This document shows, piece after piece, positions 11,694 through 23,997 of a stretch of 64,000 nt of DNA. A program made the translations under genes and the position numbers. The DNA comes from Luteitalea sp. GTDB lineage: Bacteria > Acidobacteriota > Vicinamibacteria > Vicinamibacterales > Vicinamibacteraceae. The notes beneath the pieces were generated by a model that saw only the letters and a program-made list of their open reading frames with translations, did no database searches and had not been told where the DNA came from. The DNA lies in assembly GCA_009377605.1 (NCBI GenBank), contig WHTT01000014.1, positions 1 to 64,000 on the forward strand, in the 5' to 3' direction. Each line of letters begins with the position of its first letter. Positions within the stretch are counted from its first letter, which is position 1.

Positions 11694-12671
11694 CTATCGG
11701 CGCACGAGGATCGCGCCGGTGTCGCGGCGTTTGAGAAGGCGATAGAGCTGATGTCGAGAGAGACCGAGCTCGGCAGCGGCAGCTCCCCGTCTGAAGCCGT
11801 TCCGTTCCAGAGCCGCTTGAACTTCAGCAGAGGAAGGGGGGCGGTCGAGGACCGTGGTGGAATGCCCGGGCAGCCGATGCGGCGCGCCCCCTGTCGCGCC
11901 GAAGTCCTCCGGGAGGTGCTCGCGCGCCAGCAGCACCTCGCCTCCGGCAGCGACGATCATGCGCTCGAGCGTGTTCTCCAACTCCCGGACGTTGCCTGGC
12001 CAGTGGTAGCGGACGAAGAGCTCGAAGACTCCCGGCTCGAGCGCCGGAACCGAACGGCTCTTGCGCTCAGCAAAGCGCTTGAGAATCGCTTCAACCAACT
12101 TCCACAGATCACTCGCGCCGCGCCGGCGCAGGGGCGGCACGCGCAGCTCATACACCTTGAGCCGGTAGTACAGATCCTCCCGGAACCGCCCACGCGCCTT
12201 CGCCCGCGTGAGGTCGACGTGTGTCGCCGCAATCACGCGAACGTCGAAGGGGATCTCGTGTCGGCCGCCCACTCGCTGCACCGTGCGCTGCTGGAGTGCC
12301 CGCAGGAGCTTCATCTGAAGGTCGGGTATCAAGTCGCCGACCTCGTCCAGGAACACGGTCCCACCGTTGGCCCGCTCGAACGGTCCGGGCTGGTCGTCGA
12401 GCGCACCGGTGAACGCACCTCGCACATGGCCAAAGAGCTCATCCTCGACCAAGGTCGGGGAGAGGCCGGCGCAGTTGACCACCACGAAGCGAGCTCGGTG
12501 GCGCGGCGAAGCGCGATGAATGCCGTGTGCGACGCGCTCCTTTCCCGTGCCTGACTCGCCGACAATCAGGACGGTGACGTCCGCATCGCGCGCAACACGC
12601 TGCATGTGTTGCTTCAGCGCGCAGATCTCCGCCGAGCCACCATCCACTTCCGGAAAGGGATCGTCCGGCAT
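11694..12671 (-). CDS. Sigma-54-dependent transcription activator (AAA+ plus Fis-type HTH)
   Basis: About 325 residues from the ATG complementary to 12669-12671 (MPDDPFPEVDGG), preceded by GGCGGAG; an upstream codon at 12737 would add 22 basic residues. The AAA+ domain is complete: Walker A GESGTGKE, the sigma-54 contact loop GAFTGA, Walker B in GGTVFLDEVGDL, and the arginine-finger region in FREDLYYRLKV. The C-terminal HTH is Fis-like (EVQAALERNGFRRGAAAAEL, then GLSRHQLYRLLKRR). There is no receiver, FHA, GAF or PAS domain, so any signal must act through another protein or through its expression level. A near-perfect sigma-54 promoter sits about 1 kb away, before the lasso operon, making this the obvious candidate activator. 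Confidence 0.9.
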   Translation of the reverse strand: MPDDPFPEVDGGSAEICALKQHMQRVARDADVTVLIVGESGTGKERVAHGIHRASPRHRARFVVVNCAGLSPTLVEDELFGHVRGAFTGALDDQPGPFERANGGTVFLDEVGDLIPDLQMKLLRALQQRTVQRVGGRHEIPFDVRVIAATHVDLTRAKARGRFREDLYYRLKVYELRVPPLRRRGASDLWKLVEAILKRFAERKSRSVPALEPGVFELFVRYHWPGNVRELENTLERMIVAAGGEVLLAREHLPEDFGATGGAPHRLPGHSTTVLDRPPSSAEVQAALERNGFRRGAAAAELGLSRHQLYRLLKRRDTGAILVRR

Positions 12672-12809
12672 GTGCATCTCCGCCGAGGGGCACCCCCCGG
12701 CCATGAGTGCAGAACGCCGGATCCGCCGAAAACGCACACTACGGTTCAGCTGGCGATGTGATTTTCTTCTTCGGCACCACAGATCGCCCGGGCCACCGCC
12801 TCGTGAGAC

Positions 12810-13217
12810 CTACGGCCCGCGGCTCAGGTACACGAACACGAGACCGAAGGAGAGACCGGCGTAGTAGTACGCGGTGTCGGAGGCGGCCTGCACCTGTCCG
12901 GCCGCGGTCTCGATGTCGTCTCGTTGCTCCAAGGTCAAGCCGGCCGCCTTCAAGGCCTTGCGCCACGCGGCGCGCGCATCGCCGAACTCGAGATGCGCAC
13001 GTGCAACAGACTCGATGGCCGCGAAGAGCTCGGGCTCGCTGCGCGCACCCGGATCGAAGATGCCGCGTGAGGGCACTTGGCGCATGGCGAGCGCGATGAG
13101 CTCGGACAGCGCCTCCGCGTGGCCGCGAGGACACTCGAGCTCGGCGGCGCGAACGACCCGGTGCAGCGTCGGATGCCAGTCCGCCAGGGCGCGGGAACGT
13201 GAAAGACGATGACGCAT
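12810..13217 (-). CDS. Unknown protein with C-terminal membrane segment
   Basis: 135 residues; GGGGGTCGC precedes the ATG. The body is helical and charged (ELECPRGHAEALSELIALAM, then SVARAHLEFGDARAAWRKAL). The last 20 residues are hydrophobic and aromatic (AYYYAGLSFGLVFVYL), suggesting a single membrane anchor. I do not recognise a family. It lies between the sigma-54 activator gene (same strand, about 140 bases downstream) and the lasso promoter region (divergent), so a sensory role upstream of the activator, which lacks its own sensor domain, is conceivable; this is inference from position. Confidence 0.6.
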   Translation of the reverse strand: MRHRLSRSRALADWHPTLHRVVRAAELECPRGHAEALSELIALAMRQVPSRGIFDPGARSEPELFAAIESVARAHLEFGDARAAWRKALKAAGLTLEQRDDIETAAGQVQAASDTAYYYAGLSFGLVFVYLSRGP

Positions 13218-13498
13218 GCGACCCCCTGACCCTCATTGGTTGACGGGTGAGGCCTGGTCGTGCGTATCGCCCGCGCGGCCGGGCCGTTCTTTTTGTACGG
13301 ATGCCCGCTGTTGGGCCAGTGGGTCGCCGAGCGCCTGTCGTGTTTGCCCCCGGCGGTCTGAGCACGAAGATGCCGGACGGGCGGCGATCGCGGCGAGTAG
13401 AAGGAACAGCGGACGACGAGAGCGTAGCGCGCGCCAGGGGCGAAGACAAGGGAAAAGGTCGTGCCAACTTTTGATATCCTCGCTTCCTCGGCGCGATA

Positions 13499-13526
13499 AC
13501 GGCCGCCTCGGCGAGGCGGCCCTACC
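13499..13526. repeat. Half copy of a dispersed palindromic repeat
   Basis: It contains GGCCGCCTCGGCGAGGCGGCC, slightly trimmed here as GCCGCCTCGGCGAGGCGGC, followed by CCTACC. The same palindrome ends the copy at 48526-48608, and related units occur at 33714-33866. Here it lies upstream of the lasso promoter. Confidence 0.6.
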
Positions 13527-13544
13527 ATGATGGGCCTGGTCATG

Positions 13545-13574
13545 GTGCGCGCATGCGCGCGCATGCGCGCGCAC
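13545..13574. repeat. 30-base alternating purine-pyrimidine tract
   Basis: The run begins GTGCGCGCATGCGCGC and ends GCGCGCAC, with two ATG-centred dyads inside. Every step alternates purine and pyrimidine, a pattern prone to Z-form DNA. It ends 65 bases before the sigma-54 promoter of the lasso operon, about where an activator-binding site would be expected. Confidence 0.7.
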
Positions 13575-13639
13575 CGAGTGCGGGTGCTGTCCAGCGCTTC
13601 CTGATCTCGAATTCATTGGTCGGACTCGGCACCGAGCGA

Positions 13640-13655
13640 TGGCACGCGTGTTGCC
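13640..13655 (+). promoter_or_regulatory. Sigma-54 (-24/-12) promoter of the lasso operon
   Basis: TGGCACGCGTGTTGCC matches the TGGCACGNNNNTTGCW consensus at all fixed positions except the last base, with the correct GG-to-GC distance. Taking the C at 13654 as -12 puts the transcript start near 13666. That gives a 13-base leader with GGGAG ahead of the ATG at 13679. A sigma-54 activator gene without its own sensor domain lies about 1 kb upstream on the other strand. Confidence 0.8.
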
Positions 13656-13678
13656 TCCTGCCAGCGGGAGTGACTGGC

Positions 13679-13957
13679 ATGAACGAGGATCGCGTATCCG
13701 TATCGCCGGCCGTGCGAGCGTCGATTTCCGGAGATGGCCTTGTGCTCCTGGACGTGCATGGTGGTCTCCTCTTGACGTCGAATCCGGTTGGCGCACGGAT
13801 CTGGCGGCTGCTCGAACAGCAATGGACGCCTCTCGAGATCGCGCACCAACTGGTCGAGGAATGCGACGTTCCTCTCGAGCGCGTGCATCACGACGTGACA
13901 GCATTCGTCTCGGCGCTCGTGAAGCTGGGTCTGGCGACCGAGGAGGTGACGAGGTGA
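13679..13957 (+). CDS. Lasso-peptide RRE protein (B1, PqqD-like)
   Basis: 92 residues starting MNEDRVSVSPAVRASISGDG, with GGGAG eight bases before the ATG. The sequence has the PqqD/RRE winged-helix pattern: a beta hairpin (LVLLDVHGGLLLTSNPVGAR), then IWRLLEQQWTPLEIAHQLVE, then a helical pair ending VSALVKLGLATEE. In lasso systems this domain binds the precursor leader and hands it to the protease. The stop codon overlaps the GTG start of the protease gene (GTGA), so B1 and B2 are a split version of the fused B protein found in some Proteobacteria. Confidence 0.9.
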   Translation: MNEDRVSVSPAVRASISGDGLVLLDVHGGLLLTSNPVGARIWRLLEQQWTPLEIAHQLVEECDVPLERVHHDVTAFVSALVKLGLATEEVTR

Positions 13958-14358
13958 CGCGGCGCGCCGTGCGCCAGGCCCACCGGCTCGCCATACTGAC
14001 CGGCCACGCATGGCTCGGTCTCGTCGCGTTCGACGTTGCGCGGCTGGCTGGGTTCGCTCGCCTACACGAGTCGCTGCGTCGCTATCGGGCGCGCCGCCGC
14101 GAGGGTGATGGTCCTGGCATCGACGACCTGGTTTGGGCGATCGATGAAGCCTGCGTCTGGTACGTGAAGCGTGCGGCCTGCTTACAGCGCTCGGCAGTTG
14201 CGACCTGGCTGCTCCGGCGGCATGGCTTTGCCGCGGAGCTGGTCATCGGATATCGGCCGATTCCATTCGAGTCGCACGCCTGGGTGGAAGTAGATGGCCT
14301 GGTCGTCAACGACCGGCCGCAATACAAGAAGTTCTTTGCGGTGTTGGAACGTCTCTGA
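13954..14358 (+). CDS. Lasso-peptide leader protease (B2, transglutaminase-like)
   Basis: 134 residues from a GTG that overlaps the B1 stop; AGGAGG lies just upstream. The typical lasso B2 catalytic residues are visible: Cys76 in RAACLQRSAVATWLLRRHG, His108 in SHAWVEVDG and Asp120 in VVNDRP. The enzyme removes the leader peptide from the precursor, using ATP indirectly through the cyclase complex. Length and motifs match the split B2 family. It is followed after 19 bases by the cyclase gene. Confidence 0.9.
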   Translation: MTRRAVRQAHRLAILTGHAWLGLVAFDVARLAGFARLHESLRRYRARRREGDGPGIDDLVWAIDEACVWYVKRAACLQRSAVATWLLRRHGFAAELVIGYRPIPFESHAWVEVDGLVVNDRPQYKKFFAVLERL

Positions 14359-14377
14359 TTCCTGGAAGCGGTGAGTC

Positions 14378-16273
14378 ATGGCAGCGTTGGCGGGATCTCT
14401 CTTCTTCGATCGGCGCCCAACCGAGAACGAATGCTCATCGCTGGTTGCTGCGCTCCAGCCGATGACGCCCGATGGTGTCTCGGTGCATGCCGAGCCGGGC
14501 CTGGTGATGGTGCATGGCGCATTCGACGTCTGGGCGGGCGAGCGGTCGGCGCAACAACCTGCACGCTCATCGTCCGGGCTCGTCATGACCTGGGACGGCC
14601 GGCTCGACAACCGCGACGATCTGCTGCTGCGGCTCAGCGGAAGGCTCGGGAACGATGCAAGTGACGACGCGATTGCGCTGTCGACATTCGAACGGTGGGG
14701 CGTGGAAGGTTTGCGCTTGCTCATTGGCGATTGGAGCCTCGTGATATGGGACAGCAGGCAGCGGACGCTTCATTTGGCGCGCGACTACATGGGAGTCAGG
14801 CCGCTCTATTACCTCGCCGATTCCCAGGCGATCATGTGGTCCAGCAGCCTCGGCGAGCTGGCGATACGTGCCGATCGAGCGGACGCGCTGGACGAAGCCT
14901 TCGTCGCACGATTCATGGCCCTTCAGTTCTCGACCGACGTGACCCCTTACCAAGGCATTCGCGGAGTGCCGACGGCAACCTGCGTGTCGTTCTCGCCGGA
15001 AGGTGCGGAGACAAGGCAGCGCTTCTGGCACCTGCAGCCAGGCCTCACCCGCTACCGCGACAAGGGGCAGTACGAAGAGCATCTTCGGGCGCTATGGATC
15101 GAGGCCGTCGGGTCGCGCCTGCGGGCTGAAGGCACGGTATGGGCGGAGCTGAGCGGCGGCCTGGATTCGTCGTCTGTGGTCTGCATCGCGGACGCGCTCA
15201 TCAAAGCCGGGCGCGTGACGGCGAGTGCCATTCAACCGCTGTCGCATGTCACGCTGAAGTCACCGGAAGGCGACGAGAGACGGTTCATCGCGGAGGTGGA
15301 AGCTCGCGTCGGCGTTCCTAGTGAAGTCATTGGCGTGGAGGACCATCAGGATCTGGTTGACTCCGAATGGGACTGGGTGTCGCCCTTTGCCGCCCGCGGC
15401 GTGGGGCTGGCAATGGTGCGGCATGTGACTCGACGAGGAGGGCGAGCAATCCTCTCTGGACGTGTGGGCGACACGGTCATGGGTTGTCTGCCAGATAACA
15501 GCCTGGCCGTGCTGGACGACTTCGAGCAGGGCAGCGTGATTACCGCGCTGGCCAAGATGCGGCGGTGGTGTCGCGCGACCCAGAAGCCGTTCGTTGAGAT
15601 CGCCTGGGGTCTCGCCGTTGCGTATTGGCACGCGGGGCTCACGAAAACCACTCAGGGGCATCTGAATGAGTCGCAGCAGGCAGGTCTCGACCTCGTCACG
15701 CCGCGATTCCAGCTTCTGGTACGGGGAGATACGTCGGTTGCCAGCGCATTCTCGAGAGTGACGCCGTCCAAGTGCCGCCTTGCTTCGTCGGTGCTCGCGT
15801 ATTCGTTGACGGGGCGCTTGAACATTCCCATCCTTCCGCCAGGCGTGATCCACACATACCCATTCGTCCATCGGCCGCTTGTCGAGTACATCCTGGCCAT
15901 TCCCGGTGAAGAGCTGAGCGCGCCTGGCGAGACGCGGTCCCTCATGCGTCGTGCGTTCGAAGGCTTGGTCCCAGAGAGGATCCTGCGGCGCACGTCGAAG
16001 GGCCACTACGCCCCAGCAGCCACGCGCGCCGCTCGCCCGCTTGCCGCCTCGATGTTGCCGGTCGAGCGCCTCGAAGTGGTTCGGCGCGGTTGGATTGACC
16101 CTCAGAAGCTCGAGGCGATGATTCACATGCTCGTTCACGGCGGCGGCCGCACAGGGGTGGACGTACGACGGGTGTTGCGCTTGGAACAGTGGCTGACATC
16201 ACGAGATCGGCGGGGGCCCGCCGCAATGCCAAAACGAAAGGAGGTGATAACCAATGCGATACGAAGCGCCTGA
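14378..16273 (+). CDS. Lasso-peptide cyclase (C, asparagine-synthetase-like)
   Basis: 631 residues. The N-terminal glutaminase-like domain spans about 1-220 but begins MAAL, so the Cys2 nucleophile of true asparagine synthetases is missing, as in lasso cyclases. The synthetase domain has the ATP PP-loop SGGLDSSSV from residue 259, and later RGVGLAMVRHVTRRGGRAIL and GRVGDTVMG. It would adenylate a Glu or Asp side chain of the core and close the macrolactam on the N-terminal amine. The 3' end overlaps the precursor gene by 20 bases, and the precursor's ribosome-binding site lies inside this reading frame. Confidence 0.9.
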   Translation: MAALAGSLFFDRRPTENECSSLVAALQPMTPDGVSVHAEPGLVMVHGAFDVWAGERSAQQPARSSSGLVMTWDGRLDNRDDLLLRLSGRLGNDASDDAIALSTFERWGVEGLRLLIGDWSLVIWDSRQRTLHLARDYMGVRPLYYLADSQAIMWSSSLGELAIRADRADALDEAFVARFMALQFSTDVTPYQGIRGVPTATCVSFSPEGAETRQRFWHLQPGLTRYRDKGQYEEHLRALWIEAVGSRLRAEGTVWAELSGGLDSSSVVCIADALIKAGRVTASAIQPLSHVTLKSPEGDERRFIAEVEARVGVPSEVIGVEDHQDLVDSEWDWVSPFAARGVGLAMVRHVTRRGGRAILSGRVGDTVMGCLPDNSLAVLDDFEQGSVITALAKMRRWCRATQKPFVEIAWGLAVAYWHAGLTKTTQGHLNESQQAGLDLVTPRFQLLVRGDTSVASAFSRVTPSKCRLASSVLAYSLTGRLNIPILPPGVIHTYPFVHRPLVEYILAIPGEELSAPGETRSLMRRAFEGLVPERILRRTSKGHYAPAATRAARPLAASMLPVERLEVVRRGWIDPQKLEAMIHMLVHGGGRTGVDVRRVLRLEQWLTSRDRRGPAAMPKRKEVITNAIRSA

Positions 16274-16397
16274 GCTCATCATGCTCGGTCCGGCACCACT
16301 CGTGGTGCTGGGGACCCGCGAGCCCGGAGAGGACGACAACGGCAGCTCCCAGGTCTCTCGGCCAGAGCCTGGCATCGCACTCGGTCTCGACGACTGA
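16254..16397 (+). CDS. Lasso-peptide precursor (A)
   Basis: 47 residues. The ATG follows AAAGGAGGTGATAACCA, an exceptionally complete match to the anti-Shine-Dalgarno. The leader starts MRYEAPELIMLGPAPLVVLG and carries the Y-x2-P-x-L...G pattern recognised by lasso B1 proteins. The rest is acidic and flexible (TREPGEDDNGSSQVS, then RPEPGIALGLDD). If Gly20 is core residue 1, Glu7, Asp8 and Asp9 of the core all fall in the ring-closing window and the core is 28 residues long. Using Thr21 as the usual -2 Thr leaves no acid at positions 7-9, so that cut is unlikely. The gene sits after the cyclase, unlike the common A-first order. Confidence 0.8.
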   Translation: MRYEAPELIMLGPAPLVVLGTREPGEDDNGSSQVSRPEPGIALGLDD

Positions 16398-16460
16398 GTG
16401 TTCTCTCGACCTACCCTCGCCTTCGGTGTGCGCAGCCGAGGGCGAGGGCCCTTGCAACGC

Positions 16461-17798
16461 ATGCGACAGATGCTGCACCTGCTCGCTATCGATCCCGACC
16501 GTCGTGCCGCGCTCGCGTCGTGGCACAAGGCGCGATGGGCGTTGCCAATCGCCTGCTGCTCGGAGTGGGCGCGATCCGGGCCGCTGGTGTCTCAGTGGCT
16601 GGCGGATCGTGGCCTGGCCGGCGTGCTGATCGGGCAATGGCTCGGACGCCTGTCGCTTGAGGCGGATGCCGTCGATTGGCTGGCCGTTGCACACGTGTCC
16701 GCACTGCGAGCCGTGGCCCCGGCAATGTCCTGGACACCGATTGAGTCGCTGAGGTCTCCAGACTCCCTGCTCGAATACCAGCGGTGGGCGGTTTCGCAGG
16801 CGATGTGCAGCGGGGAGCTCCCCTGCGTGCCTGGCCCGTTCGGAAAGCCAACCTGGTTCGAGGAGGTGAAGACCTGGACTTGCAGCGCCGTGGGCGCGTC
16901 TGACGCATCGCATGTGGTGTCATACCGAGCCACGCCGTACGAGGTCGTGCTGGGCGTTTCGACGCCGCGCGGTCGAGTGTACTTTAAGGGCTTCTCTTCG
17001 GATCGGGCGTCGGAAGCAAGCATTACGCGAGCTCTGTCGGAGCTCGCACCGGGCGCGTTCCCCCGTACGCTGGCACTGGAACAGAGAAGCAATGGGTCGG
17101 TGTGGTGGGTCACCGAGGAGTGCCCTGGCCCTTCGCTCGCGCGAAGCGTTACGCGAGACCGTGCGGCACGTTCTGGCGCAGCCTGTGCACACTTGCAACA
17201 GCGGCTCGCCGACTATTTGAGCCGCGAAAACGGTCTGGCGATGCCTAACGTCGATCTTGGTAGGCTTTCTGCTTGGGGAAGGGAAATCCTACGTCATTCA
17301 TATCAGGAAGAAGCTATAGGTACCCATTTCACTGCGATCACGCGCGCCTGCGAGGAGGTGGGAGCGGCCAACGTCGTGCACAGCCTCGTCCCGGCCGATC
17401 TACATCCGAGCAACATTGTCGTGACCGATGACGCCGTCCGATTCATCGACCTGGACGAGGCGCACATCGGCCCGTCGCCGCTCGCGGTATCGATCTTGGT
17501 GCGGCGACTGGCACGAGCGCAGCGAAGTCGCTCCGCTCACTCTATGTTGCGCAATGCGCTCTATTCCGTGTATGAGCGCGCCTGGTCGTCCCCGTGTCAG
17601 ATGGCTGGTCGCTGGCCAGCCTTCGAGGCCGTCTCGGCTCTTCTCGAGGCATATCTGGGATGGACCCGCGTCGTGAGAAAGACGGAACGTGGCGAAATCT
17701 ACGGCGTGCTCGATCTTGCCAAAGAGCGAACAGCGCAGCGACTCGTGGAGACGTTCAGTGCCGAGCACTCTGAACGCTGGGATCAATCGAAGCGATAG
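16461..17798 (+). CDS. Aminoglycoside-phosphotransferase-like kinase of the lasso locus
   Basis: About 445 residues from the ATG at 16461; an in-frame GTG at 16398, directly after the precursor stop, would add 21 residues. The first 140 or so residues are helical and unassigned. A kinase N-lobe follows (VLGVSTPRGRVYFKGFSSDR). The C-lobe carries PADLHPSNIVV and RFIDLDEA, corresponding to the HxDxxxxN and metal-binding Asp motifs of APH/choline-kinase folds, except that the first His is Pro. The catalytic Asp (about 313) and the Asn remain. It is co-directional with and close to the precursor gene, so a tailoring kinase acting on a core Ser or Thr is plausible. Known lasso kinases are HPr-kinase-like, not of this fold. 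It ends in a 16-base convergent overlap with the S8 peptidase gene. Confidence 0.65.
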   Translation: MRQMLHLLAIDPDRRAALASWHKARWALPIACCSEWARSGPLVSQWLADRGLAGVLIGQWLGRLSLEADAVDWLAVAHVSALRAVAPAMSWTPIESLRSPDSLLEYQRWAVSQAMCSGELPCVPGPFGKPTWFEEVKTWTCSAVGASDASHVVSYRATPYEVVLGVSTPRGRVYFKGFSSDRASEASITRALSELAPGAFPRTLALEQRSNGSVWWVTEECPGPSLARSVTRDRAARSGAACAHLQQRLADYLSRENGLAMPNVDLGRLSAWGREILRHSYQEEAIGTHFTAITRACEEVGAANVVHSLVPADLHPSNIVVTDDAVRFIDLDEAHIGPSPLAVSILVRRLARAQRSRSAHSMLRNALYSVYERAWSSPCQMAGRWPAFEAVSALLEAYLGWTRVVRKTERGEIYGVLDLAKERTAQRLVETFSAEHSERWDQSKR

Positions 17799-20700
17799 AC
17801 CATCGTTCCAACCGCCGACGGGCGGTCCCTCAGCTTGGGAATGCGCTTTCGATTCTCCCACGGGTGTCGTGCCTCATCACGCTCCATGGCACCGTCGATC
17901 AGCTCACAGAGCAGCACGCGCACATGCCCCGGCTCGGCCGACGGCGCCGAAGGGAGCTTTACGGTTTCGGTCCACTTCGCGCCTGGCTGGCGTGGGCCGC
18001 TTCGCGAGGACGCGTGGCGCTGCGCCTTCGTCGTGATGATCTCGTCCAACACAAATTTACCGGTCTTCGTTGGAAACGGCGCCGTATTGACAGCAGCGAT
18101 CCAGCGTCCCGCCCGGGGCCGTCTGACCACGAGTCTCTGCTCCTTCGCGGCTGGCAGCGTGAAATTGTCAGAAAAACACTCTCCGGACGAGCAGTCGTAC
18201 AAATACAGCTCCAGAGGGTCCGGTTCGGTATCCACGCCGCGGAGATGCAGGGCGAGGGTTGCAGCACCTTCCGGAACGTCGATCTCGAACTGGTTCGGTA
18301 GCCCCGCCGGAAGAAGCTCCCCATGGTGACGCTTGAGCGTACCGACCGACGTTTCGAGGACTGGCTCTGTGAGCTGGCCACCGCGGTTCTCGACGTCGAT
18401 CTCGAGCACGCCATGACCGGCGGAGGCTGGCCTGAGCGATGTTCTCAGGAGCCGCGCGGTGAGGGCGTACTCTGCCTCGTCCGTCGACACGAGCTCTGGA
18501 TTGTCTTCGGTCCGCGCACTGGTATTGCTCACACTGATCGTCCAGGTGCCAGCCGCAGGGTTGGGCATGGCAAGGTGATACGTGCCTTTCGGGAACGTGC
18601 GTCCGCCCAGTGGGTACGCGTGACCATAGTAGTTGGGATACAAACCGTGGCTCGGCACGATGCTTGCCCGGACGGAGCCACTGACCACTTTCAGCTCGAT
18701 GCTCAGCGTGGCCACACCTTCCGGTACTGTCAGATAGTGTGTGTTCGTGCGCATCAACGGGGCCGACCCGCTCAAGCGGAGCGTGGCGTCAGGCGCGTCG
18801 AAGCGCTCGGTTGCTACTAGCGTGGCTTGCGTCCTGAAAACGATGGCATCGGTGGCCGGATCGTGCAGATTGAGAATCGCGCTGTGGGCGCCTGTGGACG
18901 CGAGGGCGATGGCCACCGGCAGAGAGGTCGTCTGGTTCAGCGGCAGCGTGAGGGAGCGTTGTGTCGAAAACGTGCCATCATTGCCGGTCCAACTCAAGCG
19001 ATACGTGACCGCGCTGTCAGCGCCTGATTGACGTTGAAAGTGAATGGTGCGCCGACCTCTCATGCCGGCGCTCCAACCCTCACGCTCGAAGATGCCTACG
19101 CCTTTGTGTCCATGCGCCGCGTACGGTGCCAAGGGATGCACAATCTTTGCAGTGGCTTGAATCCGTGGTATCTCGATGGGACGCTTGAGCTCCCGCCAGG
19201 CGGCGTTCACGTCGAGAACGCCGTTACCTTGCTGATGTGACGGCCATCCAGCGAGAAACCGTGCGCCGACGCGCAACGCACGGCCGAGGGTCGGAACCGT
19301 GTAACTGACATGCTCCTGTTTGGCCGCGCTCAGGAGGAGCGCCGCCACTCCGGCGGCGTAGGGACCGCTGGCAGACGTGCAGCAACTGATCTGGTAACCT
19401 GGCGGGAACTTCGCTGTTGGTGCGTTCTTCGGGATCTGAAGGGCCACGCTGTCGTTCCACACATCCGCGGCGATGCGGTGTACGGGCGCGAGGAAATCCG
19501 GCTTGAGAGCGCCATCGAGTGACGGCCCAGACGCGCCGACCGGATGGAGCATAAGACCACCCAGAGTACCGCCCCCATAGAGAGCCGCGAACGTCTGCGG
19601 CCCGATCGAGCCGCCAACTGAGAAGACGTCACCAAGTGACGCCACGCTGTTGAGCCAGAGCTGCATGTTACCAGCACTGTTGAAAATCGGCTTTCCATGG
19701 ACGGCAACCATCCGTCGAAAGAAGAGGCCCGTGAAGTCGGCCGCCGTGTCCGGCACCATGACGATGCCCGCTGCCGTGCCAATGAGGTCGACGTCCGGTC
19801 GTTTGATGGTGTCCAGGTAGCTTTCCAGGAGCGTGTGCAGCCCAGAGAACGTGGAGGACCTCCGGACCAGCAACACTCGCGCGCCTGGCGCGACGCCATA
19901 CGCCAAGCCATCCTCGGTCTTGCTGCCGGCGGCGACGCTGAGCGTCATGGCCTGATGGCCACCCCGTGACGTATAGATGTGCACCGTGTGAGGTGCGCGC
20001 CCTGCCGCCACGACGAAGCTCAGATCAACTGGTTCGGGGTGCGTCAGCTTCAGGGCGCGGACATCGAGCTCCTCGTTGGCGTCCGTGACCGGCGTCTCGT
20101 CTCTAAAATCTGCGTTTCCGTTCGCGTCAACCCAGATATCACCGCTGGCCTCCTCCCGAAGGACGCCATACTCATGAATGAGATTGACCGCAGCCGGCAG
20201 GCGGAAGAGACCAAACCTGTAGCGGCCGGGTCGAGGCACGGCGTACGTCCGGTCTCCTATTTTCTGCCACGCGTGTGTGGCGTGGACCTCTGTGGAGAGC
20301 TCGACGCGCGTGGTATCCCCTTGGTCTGGGCCGATCGCACTGAGAATACCGGCGAGCTTTGGGATCTCACGTCCATCGAGCGTCTTGGCGCTGTGGAGCG
20401 TTGGATGGCGAAACTCCGGGAGAGCGCTTTCGAGGATTGCAATCGTGACCCCGCGGCCATCGTATGTCGGGTGCTTCTGGAACCACTCCGTCAAGCCGAC
20501 ATCCTCGTCGGCCGTATAGCCGCTCTCACGCGCTCGCGTCGCTGAAAGGAAGGGTAACTCGCGGCCCTCAACCGGCTTCCGCCGCACGTTCGGTATAACT
20601 CTTTCGTATTCGCGAAATAGCTCGGCGTTTTCTTGCGGCGGTCCGTCGCGATACCAACTCGCCTTGGACATCGAGGATATTTGGTACGCTTCTATGCGGT

Positions 20701-21109
20701 CGTCCGCGACCAGGTCGGTGAGCTTCTCGATAGGCACCTCCGCGCGCACGTAACGGATGTCCTCATCCGCGCGTTGTACTCGTCCGCCAAGGCGCTCCAC
20801 TCGCGCGGATGTTGCTGTGAGCCCGTTGTCCGTGACGAGAAGCATGACCTCCAATGCCCGGAGTCCGCTGACCGCAGCGCGGTTCAGCAGTAAGCGGTTG
20901 TGAAAAGACATCCGTTGTGTTTCCGCCTCGGTGGGTGCAATCAGGGCAATCACGGACACGACCGTAAGCCCCACCAAGAGGCAAGATACAGTTGCCGCGC
21001 ACACGATAGGCTGGTGGCGCGTGGCCCGAGCCGCGAGACTGCGCGCGGCCTCTGCGACCCGGTGTCGCTGTGTGTTATTGATTGAAGACCGCCTGATGCG
21101 TAGAGACAT
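17783..21109 (-). CDS. Membrane-anchored S8 (subtilisin-like) peptidase with altered catalytic Asp
   Basis: 1108 residues. A membrane segment lies at about 34-58 (CAATVSCLLVGLTVVSVIAL). The S8 domain runs from about 215 to 640. The Asp motif is replaced by VTIAILESALPEF, with Glu227 where Asp is expected. The His motif is GGHQAMTLSVAAG (His385), the oxyanion Asn lies in FNSAGN, and the Ser motif is CTSASGPYAAGVAALLL (Ser579). About 450 C-terminal residues look like beta-sandwich modules. It follows the TonB-dependent receptor gene by 11 bases on the same strand, and its end overlaps the lasso kinase gene convergently. A role in degrading or opening an imported peptide, analogous to lasso isopeptidases, is an inference; a general secreted peptidase is the alternative. 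Confidence 0.8.
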   Translation of the reverse strand: MSLRIRRSSINNTQRHRVAEAARSLAARATRHQPIVCAATVSCLLVGLTVVSVIALIAPTEAETQRMSFHNRLLLNRAAVSGLRALEVMLLVTDNGLTATSARVERLGGRVQRADEDIRYVRAEVPIEKLTDLVADDRIEAYQISSMSKASWYRDGPPQENAELFREYERVIPNVRRKPVEGRELPFLSATRARESGYTADEDVGLTEWFQKHPTYDGRGVTIAILESALPEFRHPTLHSAKTLDGREIPKLAGILSAIGPDQGDTTRVELSTEVHATHAWQKIGDRTYAVPRPGRYRFGLFRLPAAVNLIHEYGVLREEASGDIWVDANGNADFRDETPVTDANEELDVRALKLTHPEPVDLSFVVAAGRAPHTVHIYTSRGGHQAMTLSVAAGSKTEDGLAYGVAPGARVLLVRRSSTFSGLHTLLESYLDTIKRPDVDLIGTAAGIVMVPDTAADFTGLFFRRMVAVHGKPIFNSAGNMQLWLNSVASLGDVFSVGGSIGPQTFAALYGGGTLGGLMLHPVGASGPSLDGALKPDFLAPVHRIAADVWNDSVALQIPKNAPTAKFPPGYQISCCTSASGPYAAGVAALLLSAAKQEHVSYTVPTLGRALRVGARFLAGWPSHQQGNGVLDVNAAWRELKRPIEIPRIQATAKIVHPLAPYAAHGHKGVGIFEREGWSAGMRGRRTIHFQRQSGADSAVTYRLSWTGNDGTFSTQRSLTLPLNQTTSLPVAIALASTGAHSAILNLHDPATDAIVFRTQATLVATERFDAPDATLRLSGSAPLMRTNTHYLTVPEGVATLSIELKVVSGSVRASIVPSHGLYPNYYGHAYPLGGRTFPKGTYHLAMPNPAAGTWTISVSNTSARTEDNPELVSTDEAEYALTARLLRTSLRPASAGHGVLEIDVENRGGQLTEPVLETSVGTLKRHHGELLPAGLPNQFEIDVPEGAATLALHLRGVDTEPDPLELYLYDCSSGECFSDNFTLPAAKEQRLVVRRPRAGRWIAAVNTAPFPTKTGKFVLDEIITTKAQRHASSRSGPRQPGAKWTETVKLPSAPSAEPGHVRVLLCELIDGAMERDEARHPWENRKRIPKLRDRPSAVGTMVYRFD

Positions 21110-21120
21110 ATGTGATCGCT

Positions 21121-23997
21121 TCAGTATGAGAGCCGGAGGACGAGCTGGGCCGAGCGTGGGAGTTGCCTGAACGTCGTCGAGCCAAAGAGCGGATTGAACG
21201 TCTCGGTCGCCCCACTCTCGAAGCTCAAGTCGGCGCCGTTATTGGTGACGTTGAAGACGTCCAGGCCCGCATCGAGCGTGAGCGCACGCCACAAGAATCG
21301 GCGACCGATGCGCACGTTCCACGTGTGGAGTGTCGGTGTCCGCAACTGGCCCTCGCCCCGCGTCGGAAACGCAAAGCGGAGCGTTGTCGCAAGCGGATTG
21401 GCGACGACGCGGCCATTCGAAAGCGTGACGGTCTCCGGCCCGAATGCGGGGTCCGGTGAGTCGAGGCTCGAGATGATGGGTCCGGACCACGCGCCTGACT
21501 GGAACGCATAGGTACTGGCAAGGAGAAGCTGCCACGGTCCAGTGTAGGTAACGCCGACCCTCACGATGTGGTTCTGCCACTGCGCGCTGCCGGTGCCGCG
21601 CTGGCTCATGTGCCCATCGGAGAGGCTGTTCGCGTCGGTCGATGGCGTGCCGGTGGAGCCGGTTGGGCTGCCGATGCCCTTGTCGTTGGCAAACGCCTGT
21701 GGCTGGATGAACGCAGCGGGGTCGTTCGGCTGCCAGGTGCCGGCTATGTGCCGCCACTGCCGGACGTAGCTCGCGATCCCTTCGAGGCGGGCCGTGCGCT
21801 TTGTCAGCGCGACCTCGAACGAGCTGTAAACAGGCGAGTTCCATTGGTTGTTCGTTGCCAGGTAGAGCTCGTTGAACGCTTCGTCCTCGTATCCGACAAA
21901 GCTGTTGTCCCGGTACTGAGCATTCGTCTCCACGAAGGTGAGCCGATCGCGGAACCGGCGGCGCACGACGTCCACTCGGGCCGTGACGTTGCCACCAAGT
22001 TGCGTCTCATAACCCGTTCCCCATTCGTGAATGAACGGTTGGTGGAGATTCCGATCGATCGTCCTGTCCGGGCGTACAGCGAGGGTGGCTGGCGTCTCAT
22101 AGACGGTTTCGAACGTCCCATCGAGATCGAGGTCGTACAGGTCGCGCCGGCCCAATGCCGACGTCCCAGCGGATATGCGCGTTTGGGAAGGGTGGTCGTG
22201 AACTCGTACCCAATGCGCCCGGACCACGTTGCGCCCGTTCCTGGTCAGCGCGTAGTTGACGCCAAGACGGGGGCCAATCTCGGTCGTGCGCTGCGTCGTG
22301 ACATCGAAGAGACGATCTGTCCACGCGATGCGATCGATTCGGATGCCAGCGTTGATCGTGAGGTTGACGATGGGGCGCCAGGCGTCCTGGACGTAGACGG
22401 CGAGGTCTTCACCTTCCCGCCGAGAGTTGGTCAGCTCGGTGCCATCGACAATCTGGCGATGAAATGGTTGAACCGTGCCGTCCAGGACGCTCGGCTCGCG
22501 AAGCACGGCTTCTTCGAAGACGAACCCGTCGTTGACATAGAAGGTACGAAGACCGACCTCGATACGCGGCTGCGCGTAAGCGCCGACCTGGAGCTCGTGA
22601 GATCCGAGTAGATGACTGGCGAAGAGGGTGGCATCGAACGACAAGGTGAGCTTGGAATTGGGTTGTTCGTTCCAGGCCGTCACGGGCGAGTCCAAATTGG
22701 CGAGCCGGCCATTGCCGACGAGGCGGCCACCCGACGGAATCGTGTCCTGAAAGACGCGTCGCAACGGTTCGTCAATTCCAGGGTCTCTGTCGTCGTTGCG
22801 CTTGTCGTTGTAGCTCGCGCCAAAGCGGGTCGTCAGCCGGTCTGACCAGATCGATGACAACCGGACGGAGGCTCCATTGCCGCCCGCCGCCTCAGTAGTT
22901 GGGTGCTCGACCACGGCGGTCGCGGACGTGACCGGATTGACGTCTCGTTGATAGAACCCCTCCAGTCGATGCGCGTTGGATAATTGGCCATTGAGCTTGG
23001 TGAACCAGAAATGCGCCTCGTTTGTGCCGTCGAACGGCGCAAACCCGGGAACCAACGCGCGCAGCGCCTCGAGCTCCGTTGAGGTGCGGCTGATCCCATT
23101 CTCGACGTCGACGTAGCGATAAGCCCCGAACGCCCACAGGCGATCTCTCACAACCGGTCCGCCGAGCGACAAGTCCACGTGGCGCTGATCTACCGTGCTG
23201 CTCGTGCCCCCGGGCGTGTTGGAGGCGTTCCAGGCGCGTGGCTGGAGAAACGCGCTTGTCGTGCCGCGGAGCTCGTTCGTGCCGCTGGCCGTCGCAATGT
23301 TGATGACACCGCCCACGCCCAAGGGAGACGACGCATCCACGCCGGCAGTCTTGACTTGAATGTCGTCGATCAGGTCCGTATTCAATCCTATGTAGCCGAC
23401 GCCGGAGAGAAGGGCTGGAGCCACGTCTGCGCCATCGATCTGTATGACGTTGGTGTTGGCGGCGGCGCCATGAACGTAGAAGAACTTCTCGTTGTTCGCC
23501 CATTCGGCGGTCGTCACGCCGGGCGCCAAGGTTAGCGCGCCAAACCACTCCCGGCGTTCTGACAGTGGCATCGAGCGAAGCAGCCTCCCGCTGATCTGAA
23601 CCGACTGCCCTGCGTTCTGTGTTTCGAGGAGGGGAGTCTCTTGCGTGACCTCGACCGTCTCGTCGATGGAACCGATCGTCATCACGATATTGAGGTCTCG
23701 ATTGCCGCCGGCCCGCACGGTGACGCGAGATTCAGGCGACTCGAAGCTCGGGAGCGTTGCGACAATGACGTAGTCGCCTGGTGGAAGGTCCAGGAGGCGG
23801 TATGAGCCGTCACTATGCGTTGTCGCCGCGTGGATGCCAGGAACAGTCTCGCTCGTTGCAACGATGGAGACACCGGGGAGCACCGCACCCTGTTCATCCG
23901 CCACGACACCTCGAACGCTCCCGTTCGCCGTCGTCTGAGCATGCACGGACGACGCGGAGAGAAGCGCAAGGAACAACAGGCTGGAAATGCGGTACAT
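21121..23997 (-). CDS. TonB-dependent receptor with N-terminal carboxypeptidase-like regulatory domain
   Basis: 958 residues. A signal peptide (MYRISSLLFLALLSASSVHA) leads into a CarboxypepD_reg domain (GVVADEQGAVLPGVSIVATS), then a plug (SMPLSERREWFGALTLAPGV, VIQIDGADVAPALLSGVGYI) and a long barrel. The protein ends SAQLVLRLSY, with the C-terminal aromatic residue typical of outer-membrane barrels. It should import a substrate with TonB energy. It forms an operon with the S8 peptidase and runs towards the lasso genes. Exporter-less proteobacterial lasso clusters often carry such a receptor, so a lasso peptide is a reasonable candidate ligand. Acidobacterial genomes hold many such receptors, so chance adjacency is possible. 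Confidence 0.9.
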   Translation of the reverse strand: MYRISSLLFLALLSASSVHAQTTANGSVRGVVADEQGAVLPGVSIVATSETVPGIHAATTHSDGSYRLLDLPPGDYVIVATLPSFESPESRVTVRAGGNRDLNIVMTIGSIDETVEVTQETPLLETQNAGQSVQISGRLLRSMPLSERREWFGALTLAPGVTTAEWANNEKFFYVHGAAANTNVIQIDGADVAPALLSGVGYIGLNTDLIDDIQVKTAGVDASSPLGVGGVINIATASGTNELRGTTSAFLQPRAWNASNTPGGTSSTVDQRHVDLSLGGPVVRDRLWAFGAYRYVDVENGISRTSTELEALRALVPGFAPFDGTNEAHFWFTKLNGQLSNAHRLEGFYQRDVNPVTSATAVVEHPTTEAAGGNGASVRLSSIWSDRLTTRFGASYNDKRNDDRDPGIDEPLRRVFQDTIPSGGRLVGNGRLANLDSPVTAWNEQPNSKLTLSFDATLFASHLLGSHELQVGAYAQPRIEVGLRTFYVNDGFVFEEAVLREPSVLDGTVQPFHRQIVDGTELTNSRREGEDLAVYVQDAWRPIVNLTINAGIRIDRIAWTDRLFDVTTQRTTEIGPRLGVNYALTRNGRNVVRAHWVRVHDHPSQTRISAGTSALGRRDLYDLDLDGTFETVYETPATLAVRPDRTIDRNLHQPFIHEWGTGYETQLGGNVTARVDVVRRRFRDRLTFVETNAQYRDNSFVGYEDEAFNELYLATNNQWNSPVYSSFEVALTKRTARLEGIASYVRQWRHIAGTWQPNDPAAFIQPQAFANDKGIGSPTGSTGTPSTDANSLSDGHMSQRGTGSAQWQNHIVRVGVTYTGPWQLLLASTYAFQSGAWSGPIISSLDSPDPAFGPETVTLSNGRVVANPLATTLRFAFPTRGEGQLRTPTLHTWNVRIGRRFLWRALTLDAGLDVFNVTNNGADLSFESGATETFNPLFGSTTFRQLPRSAQLVLRLSY

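Follow-up and report, generated by a model that had tools for sequence, protein, structure and literature searches.

The window, a stretch of 64,000 nucleotides from a Luteitalea sp. genome, carries a lasso peptide cluster together with several genes that are variants on the usual set. The features on which our argument depends are listed here by position.

11694..12737, minus strand: sigma-54-dependent activator (PF00158, E 3.9e-62; homologue in L017-L021)
13640..13654, plus strand: sigma-54-type promoter TGGCACG-N4-TTGC, 39 bases before B1
13679..13957, plus strand: B1, PqqD-like leader-binding protein (RRE; PF05402, E 6.8e-15)
13954..14358, plus strand: B2, transglutaminase-like leader peptidase (NF033537, 78 bits against a cut-off of 33; PF13471)
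14378..16273, plus strand: C, asparagine-synthase-like lasso cyclase (PF00733 and GATase_7)
16254..16397, plus strand: A, lasso precursor gene (reading frame with Shine-Dalgarno sequence, nine homologues behind cyclases, codon-position pattern)
16254..16310, plus strand: predicted leader, residues 1-19 (invariant columns; register that of BsfA)
16311..16394, plus strand: predicted core GTREPGEDDNGSSQVSRPEPGIALGLDD (Gly20, Gly25, Asp28, Gly40, Leu43, Gly44 and Asp46 invariant in 9/9)
16414..16448, plus strand: 14-bp hairpin between A and K (-31.9 kcal/mol, z -2.9)
16461..17798, plus strand: K, APH-fold kinase (catalytic residues, AlphaFold model, Foldseek matches)
17783..21109, minus strand: S8 subtilase-like protein, convergent with K (PF00082; Glu replaces the catalytic Asp)
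21121..23997, minus strand: TonB-dependent-receptor-like outer-membrane barrel with CarboxypepD_reg domain (PF25183, PF13620)

The PqqD-like B1, transglutaminase-like B2 and asparagine-synthase-like C expected of a lasso cluster are thus all present. The best NCBIfam match of C is the lasso cyclase model NF033535, with a score of 230 bits that lies below the exception cut-off of that model, and its sequence carries the PP-loop SGGLDSS. Gene A has an ATG start, 47 codons and the translation MRYEAPELIMLGPAPLVVLGTREPGEDDNGSSQVSRPEPGIALGLDD. Because it begins inside the cyclase gene, the two overlap by 20 bases, and gaaAGGAGGTGATaacca, directly before the ATG, is a near-complete Shine-Dalgarno match. 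The initial annotation had described a hidden lasso precursor gene with these coordinates, this overlap and this ribosome binding site, and in all of these it was correct. When start-to-stop frames of 30-80 codons were collected over the whole window, with any start accepted and nested starts counted, a single one of the 1,516 combined a strong Shine-Dalgarno sequence with Y-x2-P-x-[LIV] near its start, and this was gene A. When 193 genomes of the class were searched with a profile of the precursor family, 6 gave matches, and every match lay next to a lasso cyclase. Among the homologues, substitutions per codon at positions 1, 2 and 3 were 0.31, 0.26 and 0.49, highest at the third position, and for tandem copies within one genome dN/dS, estimated by a simple method and from short sequences, was about 0.24-0.37, with nonsynonymous changes below synonymous ones. 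Judged from its sequence, the reading frame is a real gene, a lasso precursor behind B1-B2-C. No near-identical plasmid copies were found, and a literature search for Luteitalea or Vicinamibacter together with lasso peptides yielded nothing relevant.

Searching with the cyclase gave matches in eight of 193 genomes from the class. Besides the genome of the window, four share the complete syntenic block and have two precursors in tandem apiece, and nine syntenic sequences from these five genomes, the window among them, were aligned. Residues Y3, P6, E7, L8, G12, A14, V18, G20, G25, D28, G40, L43, G44 and D46 are invariant in all nine; between G20 and D28 every position varies except G25. An alignment across relatives had been proposed in the initial annotation as a check, with the loss of Gly20 and of the acidic cluster as the damaging outcome; Gly20 and Asp28 are kept in 9/9, whereas Glu26 and Asp27 of the acidic cluster are not. 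The overlap of C with A is exactly 20 bases in all six clusters in which C and the first precursor are readable, and our locus comparison agrees with a published study (PMC9064862) that a precursor downstream of C, often as a tandem pair, is the usual arrangement in Acidobacteriota. The source genome possesses a second, diverged lasso cluster on contig C102 (L002/L025), with the precursor MKYEKPKLYELASALSIVRGIPPVGLDSPDPGERLEGLEVGLDD behind its cyclase; the overlap is again 20 bases and this precursor likewise ends in GLDD; no homologue of K, of the S8-like protein or of the barrel was present beside it on the stretches of this contig that were read. A Luteitalea-type precursor in L016 (1344-1481), MRYEKPELVEVGFALDIVLESGTSEDVDNPETRERRQDMLAGLDD, has Glu in place of Gly20 and keeps the GLDD end. 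In the acidobacterial loci L028-L074, one to four tandem precursor copies follow C, and their ends carry acidic motifs conserved within each subgroup (YEADE, YDLDE, YADWE).

The precursor sits in a variant gene set, of which the exchange of the peptidase beside the receptor is the best lead. The barrel gene precedes the S8 gene by 11 bases, and the pair is kept in G049, G040 and G039 (loci L018 and L020 among them); what can be seen of the S8 gene in G134 is its end, and L019 has two S8 copies in tandem. E227, H385 and S579 are invariant in 5/5 full-length copies linked to lasso genes, so that the Asp-His-Ser triad of active S8 subtilases is incomplete, with Glu at the Asp position and His and Ser retained. 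The AlphaFold model of this protein is poor (pLDDT 41), too poor to be of use, and leaves the active site unmodelled. In other acidobacterial lasso loci the best NCBIfam match of the protein in the slot beside the barrel is the AtxE2 lasso isopeptidase, an S9 enzyme: L057 scores 438 bits, above the cut-off, and seven others score 145-182 bits, below it. The slot protein of L038 had no match to the AtxE2 model, and the S8-like protein of the window had none to the AtxE2-type isopeptidase model NF033523. By sequence, a new feature is an S8-like protein beside the receptor where other acidobacterial lasso clusters have an AtxE2-like S9 protein. Probably the receptor and the S8-like protein form an arm that would act in uptake or turnover of the peptide, the S8-like protein standing in for the S9 isopeptidase.

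The most serious alternative, to which we give an appreciable minority weight, is that the S8-like protein and the barrel are neighbours through shared ancestry and have no role in lasso metabolism. All the syntenic genomes come from one order, and the remote S8 homologue of G192 (L094), which keeps the canonical Asp, belongs to a distant TonB-S8 pair around which 14 kb of sequence showed no lasso gene. However, among the 193 genomes high-scoring S8 proteins are limited to five of the six with a cyclase of at least 50% identity, plus one fragmented assembly; the co-occurrence with the cluster has a hypergeometric P of about 2e-8, computed on six genomes of shared ancestry. That AtxE2-like proteins fill the same slot in other lasso loci also speaks against mere neighbourhood. 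Within an uptake arm, a more specific proposal, that the Glu-His-Ser protein is a dedicated lasso-peptide hydrolase replacing the S9 isopeptidase, is one we make tentatively and consider rather doubtful, and given the altered triad a role in binding only is equally compatible. If the hydrolase proposal were true, evolution would have found a second way to open or degrade a threaded peptide once it has been taken up through the receptor. We know of no lasso-opening enzyme outside S9, and the S8-like protein, if it acts on the peptide, would be the first; it would also help to test why some lasso clusters have a receptor and a peptidase.

The leader agrees with what is expected of lasso peptide clusters. 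Of the signature Y-x2-P-x-L...G, noted in the initial annotation, Tyr3, Pro6 and Leu8 are invariant in 9/9, and relative to Gly20, also invariant, these residues fall at -17 (Y3), -14 (P6) and -12 (L8), the correct distance, with V18 at -2 and L19 at -1. In BsfA the register is likewise Tyr(-17), Pro(-14) and Leu(-12) (Duan et al. 2023, PMC10368454), which places the site at Val(-2)-Leu(-1)|Gly1. B1 would bind the leader through Tyr3-x2-Pro-x-Leu, and cleavage by B2 at Leu19|Gly20, with Val18 serving as the -2 residue, is supported by the invariance of both Val18 and Gly20, as the initial annotation had proposed in cutting before Gly20. This argument from register holds for the clade of the window only, because the distance from leader to acid is not fixed in the lasso precursors of Terriglobia. 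In several precursors of L028-L074 the first acid lies more than nine residues past the expected cut.

Cut before Gly20, the core has 28 residues and a pI of about 4, and Glu7, Asp8 and Asp9 fall in the range of the ring acid, as had been claimed. All three adjacent candidates lie at core positions 7-9, where a lasso cluster requires its acid, but they are not equal: Glu26 and Asp27 each occur in 3/9 precursors, common to the window and L017 only, and Asp28 in 9/9, so that the three acceptors narrow mainly to Asp28. This invariant acid is at core position 9 in the window and in L020b and at position 8 in the other seven; counted from Gly25, the spacing G-x2-D-[NSH] is invariant in 9/9. Since L020b has its acid at position 9 and none at 7 or 8, nine-residue rings are expected to occur in the clade. 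The best assignment is a ring from Gly20 to Asp28 (Gly1-Asp9), and we regard the ring acid as largely settled by the alignment. C would link the amine of Gly20 with the side chain of Asp28, giving a nine-residue ring and a 19-residue acidic tail. We think it unlikely that, with the same gene and the same cut, the ring instead closes on Asp27 with eight residues and leaves Asp28 just outside. Such a closure would agree with the acid at position 8 in 7/9 precursors, which is where Asp27 lies in the window, and with the review evidence that changing the size of a lasso ring by one residue usually reduces yield (PMC13352647); the poor conservation of Asp27, the fixed spacing from Gly25 and the example of L020b all point instead to Asp28. 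The cut, the ring and the threading of the product are predictions from these patterns. Beyond the ring, the core has candidate Ser/Thr residues at positions 13 and 16 and a conserved GxxLGLDD tail, and this acidic LGLDD end is a new feature.

K had no match in a Pfam search. Its catalytic Lys, Glu, Asp, Asn and metal-binding Asp (K176, E185, D313, N318, D330) are invariant in 23 homologues from lasso loci, and its AlphaFold model is good (pLDDT 90), with aminoglycoside and corramycin phosphotransferases as the top Foldseek matches in the PDB (best E 2.8e-10); the predicted fold is that of an APH kinase. Homologues are present in many Terriglobia lasso loci. A start at GTG 16398 was rejected, and ATG 16461 agrees with the starts of the relatives; the first part of the protein (16461-16820) is a mixed alpha/beta region of about 120 residues ahead of the kinase domain. 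Columns 32 and 35 hold Ser or Thr in 9/9 precursors, and because of this conservation we infer that the precursor is probably a substrate of K, with phosphate added to Ser32, Ser35 or both (core 13 and 16) ahead of cleavage by B2. The combination of an APH-fold kinase gene behind the precursor and two core positions at which Ser/Thr never changes is a new feature and offers a candidate for a new phosphorylation site that is directly testable. Corramycin phosphotransferase acts on the peptide antibiotic corramycin, and as it is the best structural match of K, one might suppose that K serves self-protection by phosphorylating the finished peptide and is not a precursor kinase. We judge this improbable: precursors are the substrates of the lasso kinases known so far, the core peptide was no substrate for BsfK (PMC10368454), and no K-linked precursor has lost Ser/Thr at column 32 or 35.

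The usual, though not universal, Thr(-2) of lasso precursors is absent, and Val18, invariant in the clade, takes its place. The initial annotation called the cleavage site atypical, and the absence of Thr stands; the site is not without precedent, however, as leaders with Ile/Val(-2), all with a kinase or phosphotransferase, are known from Acidobacteriaceae, and release of the core by BsfB2 after Ile(-2) has been proven in vitro by mass spectrometry (PMC10368454). For this reason Val(-2) is not taken as a defining loss; Val18 and K together place the precursor, by its sequence, in the known Ile/Val(-2) kinase-associated group. The window precursor does have Thr21, but a core that starts at Glu23, as the Thr(-2) rule would have it, and becomes a linear or otherwise modified peptide is scarcely credible, as this core (EPGEDDNGS...) has N, G and S at positions 7, 8 and 9 and therefore no ring acid, as had been pointed out, and Thr21, found in 1/9 homologues, was ruled out as the -2 residue. 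Since Thr(-2) is the usual guide to a lasso core, clusters like this one may be overlooked or mis-cut, and the alignment gives a rule by which the core can be located in this clade: V-[LQ]|G...G-x2-D-[NSH].

Comparison with described systems bears on which parts are new. The bsf cluster of Bradymonas sediminis (PMC10368454) shares the split B1/B2, the Y(-17)xxP(-14)xL(-12) leader, a beta-branched hydrophobic residue at -2, Gly1 and a kinase in the cluster, but BsfK resembles HPr kinases and modifies Ser3, whereas K has an APH fold and the third core residue in the window is Arg, and the ring acid is Asp8 in bsf and probably Asp9 in the window. The acidobacterial cluster 482.1 from a soil metagenome (PMC9064862) has B1, B2, C, a 1404-bp kinase annotated 'aminoglycoside phosphotransferase family' and similar in size to K, two small A genes after C and a non-Thr residue at -2; it differs in that the kinase precedes B2 and a 2118-bp hypothetical gene is adjacent, and the text names no isopeptidase or S8 protein. 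In the paeninodin family (PadeA/PadeK) a lasso precursor is also tailored by a kinase, but PadeK, of the HPr-like class, modifies a C-terminal Ser, and here the C-terminus is LGLDD, ending in Asp-Asp, with an APH-like kinase of another fold class. The astexin and benenodin clusters (AtxE2) likewise have a receptor-peptidase pair beside the lasso operon; there, however, the isopeptidase is of the S9 type and GntR and sigma/anti-sigma genes are found, in place of the S8-like protein with Glu for Asp and the sigma-54 activator of the window. As a whole, we are reasonably confident of A as a class II lasso precursor (without cysteine) within the full proposed scheme of cut, ring, kinase, sigma-54 control and S8 arm.

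The sigma-54-type promoter and the activator are a further new feature of this lasso cluster. The sigma-54 consensus is matched at 10/10 bases in the window and L017 and at 9/10 in L019-L021, always 37-40 bases before B1; L018 has a weaker motif at another location. A genome-wide count of the pattern gave 7 instances against 7 for the reversed control, so there is no excess and the support for the promoter is positional. Probably the operon is switched on by sigma-54 with the adjacent activator. The 20-base overlap would probably couple translation of A to that of C, and the hairpin between A and K, which has counterparts in the A-K gap of 4/4 K-linked relatives, may ensure a surplus of precursor message. 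A search for known RNA families in 13000-18000 found none, and the idea that the hairpin loop is a dispersed repeat was rejected, as it is a single copy in the genome. Adjoining the activator is a gene for a small protein with no Pfam match (12810-13217, minus strand), kept in L017-L021. At 13545-13574, 5' of the promoter, are GC-rich CGCGCATGCGCG repeats, similar in the relatives, which are a possible binding site for the activator.
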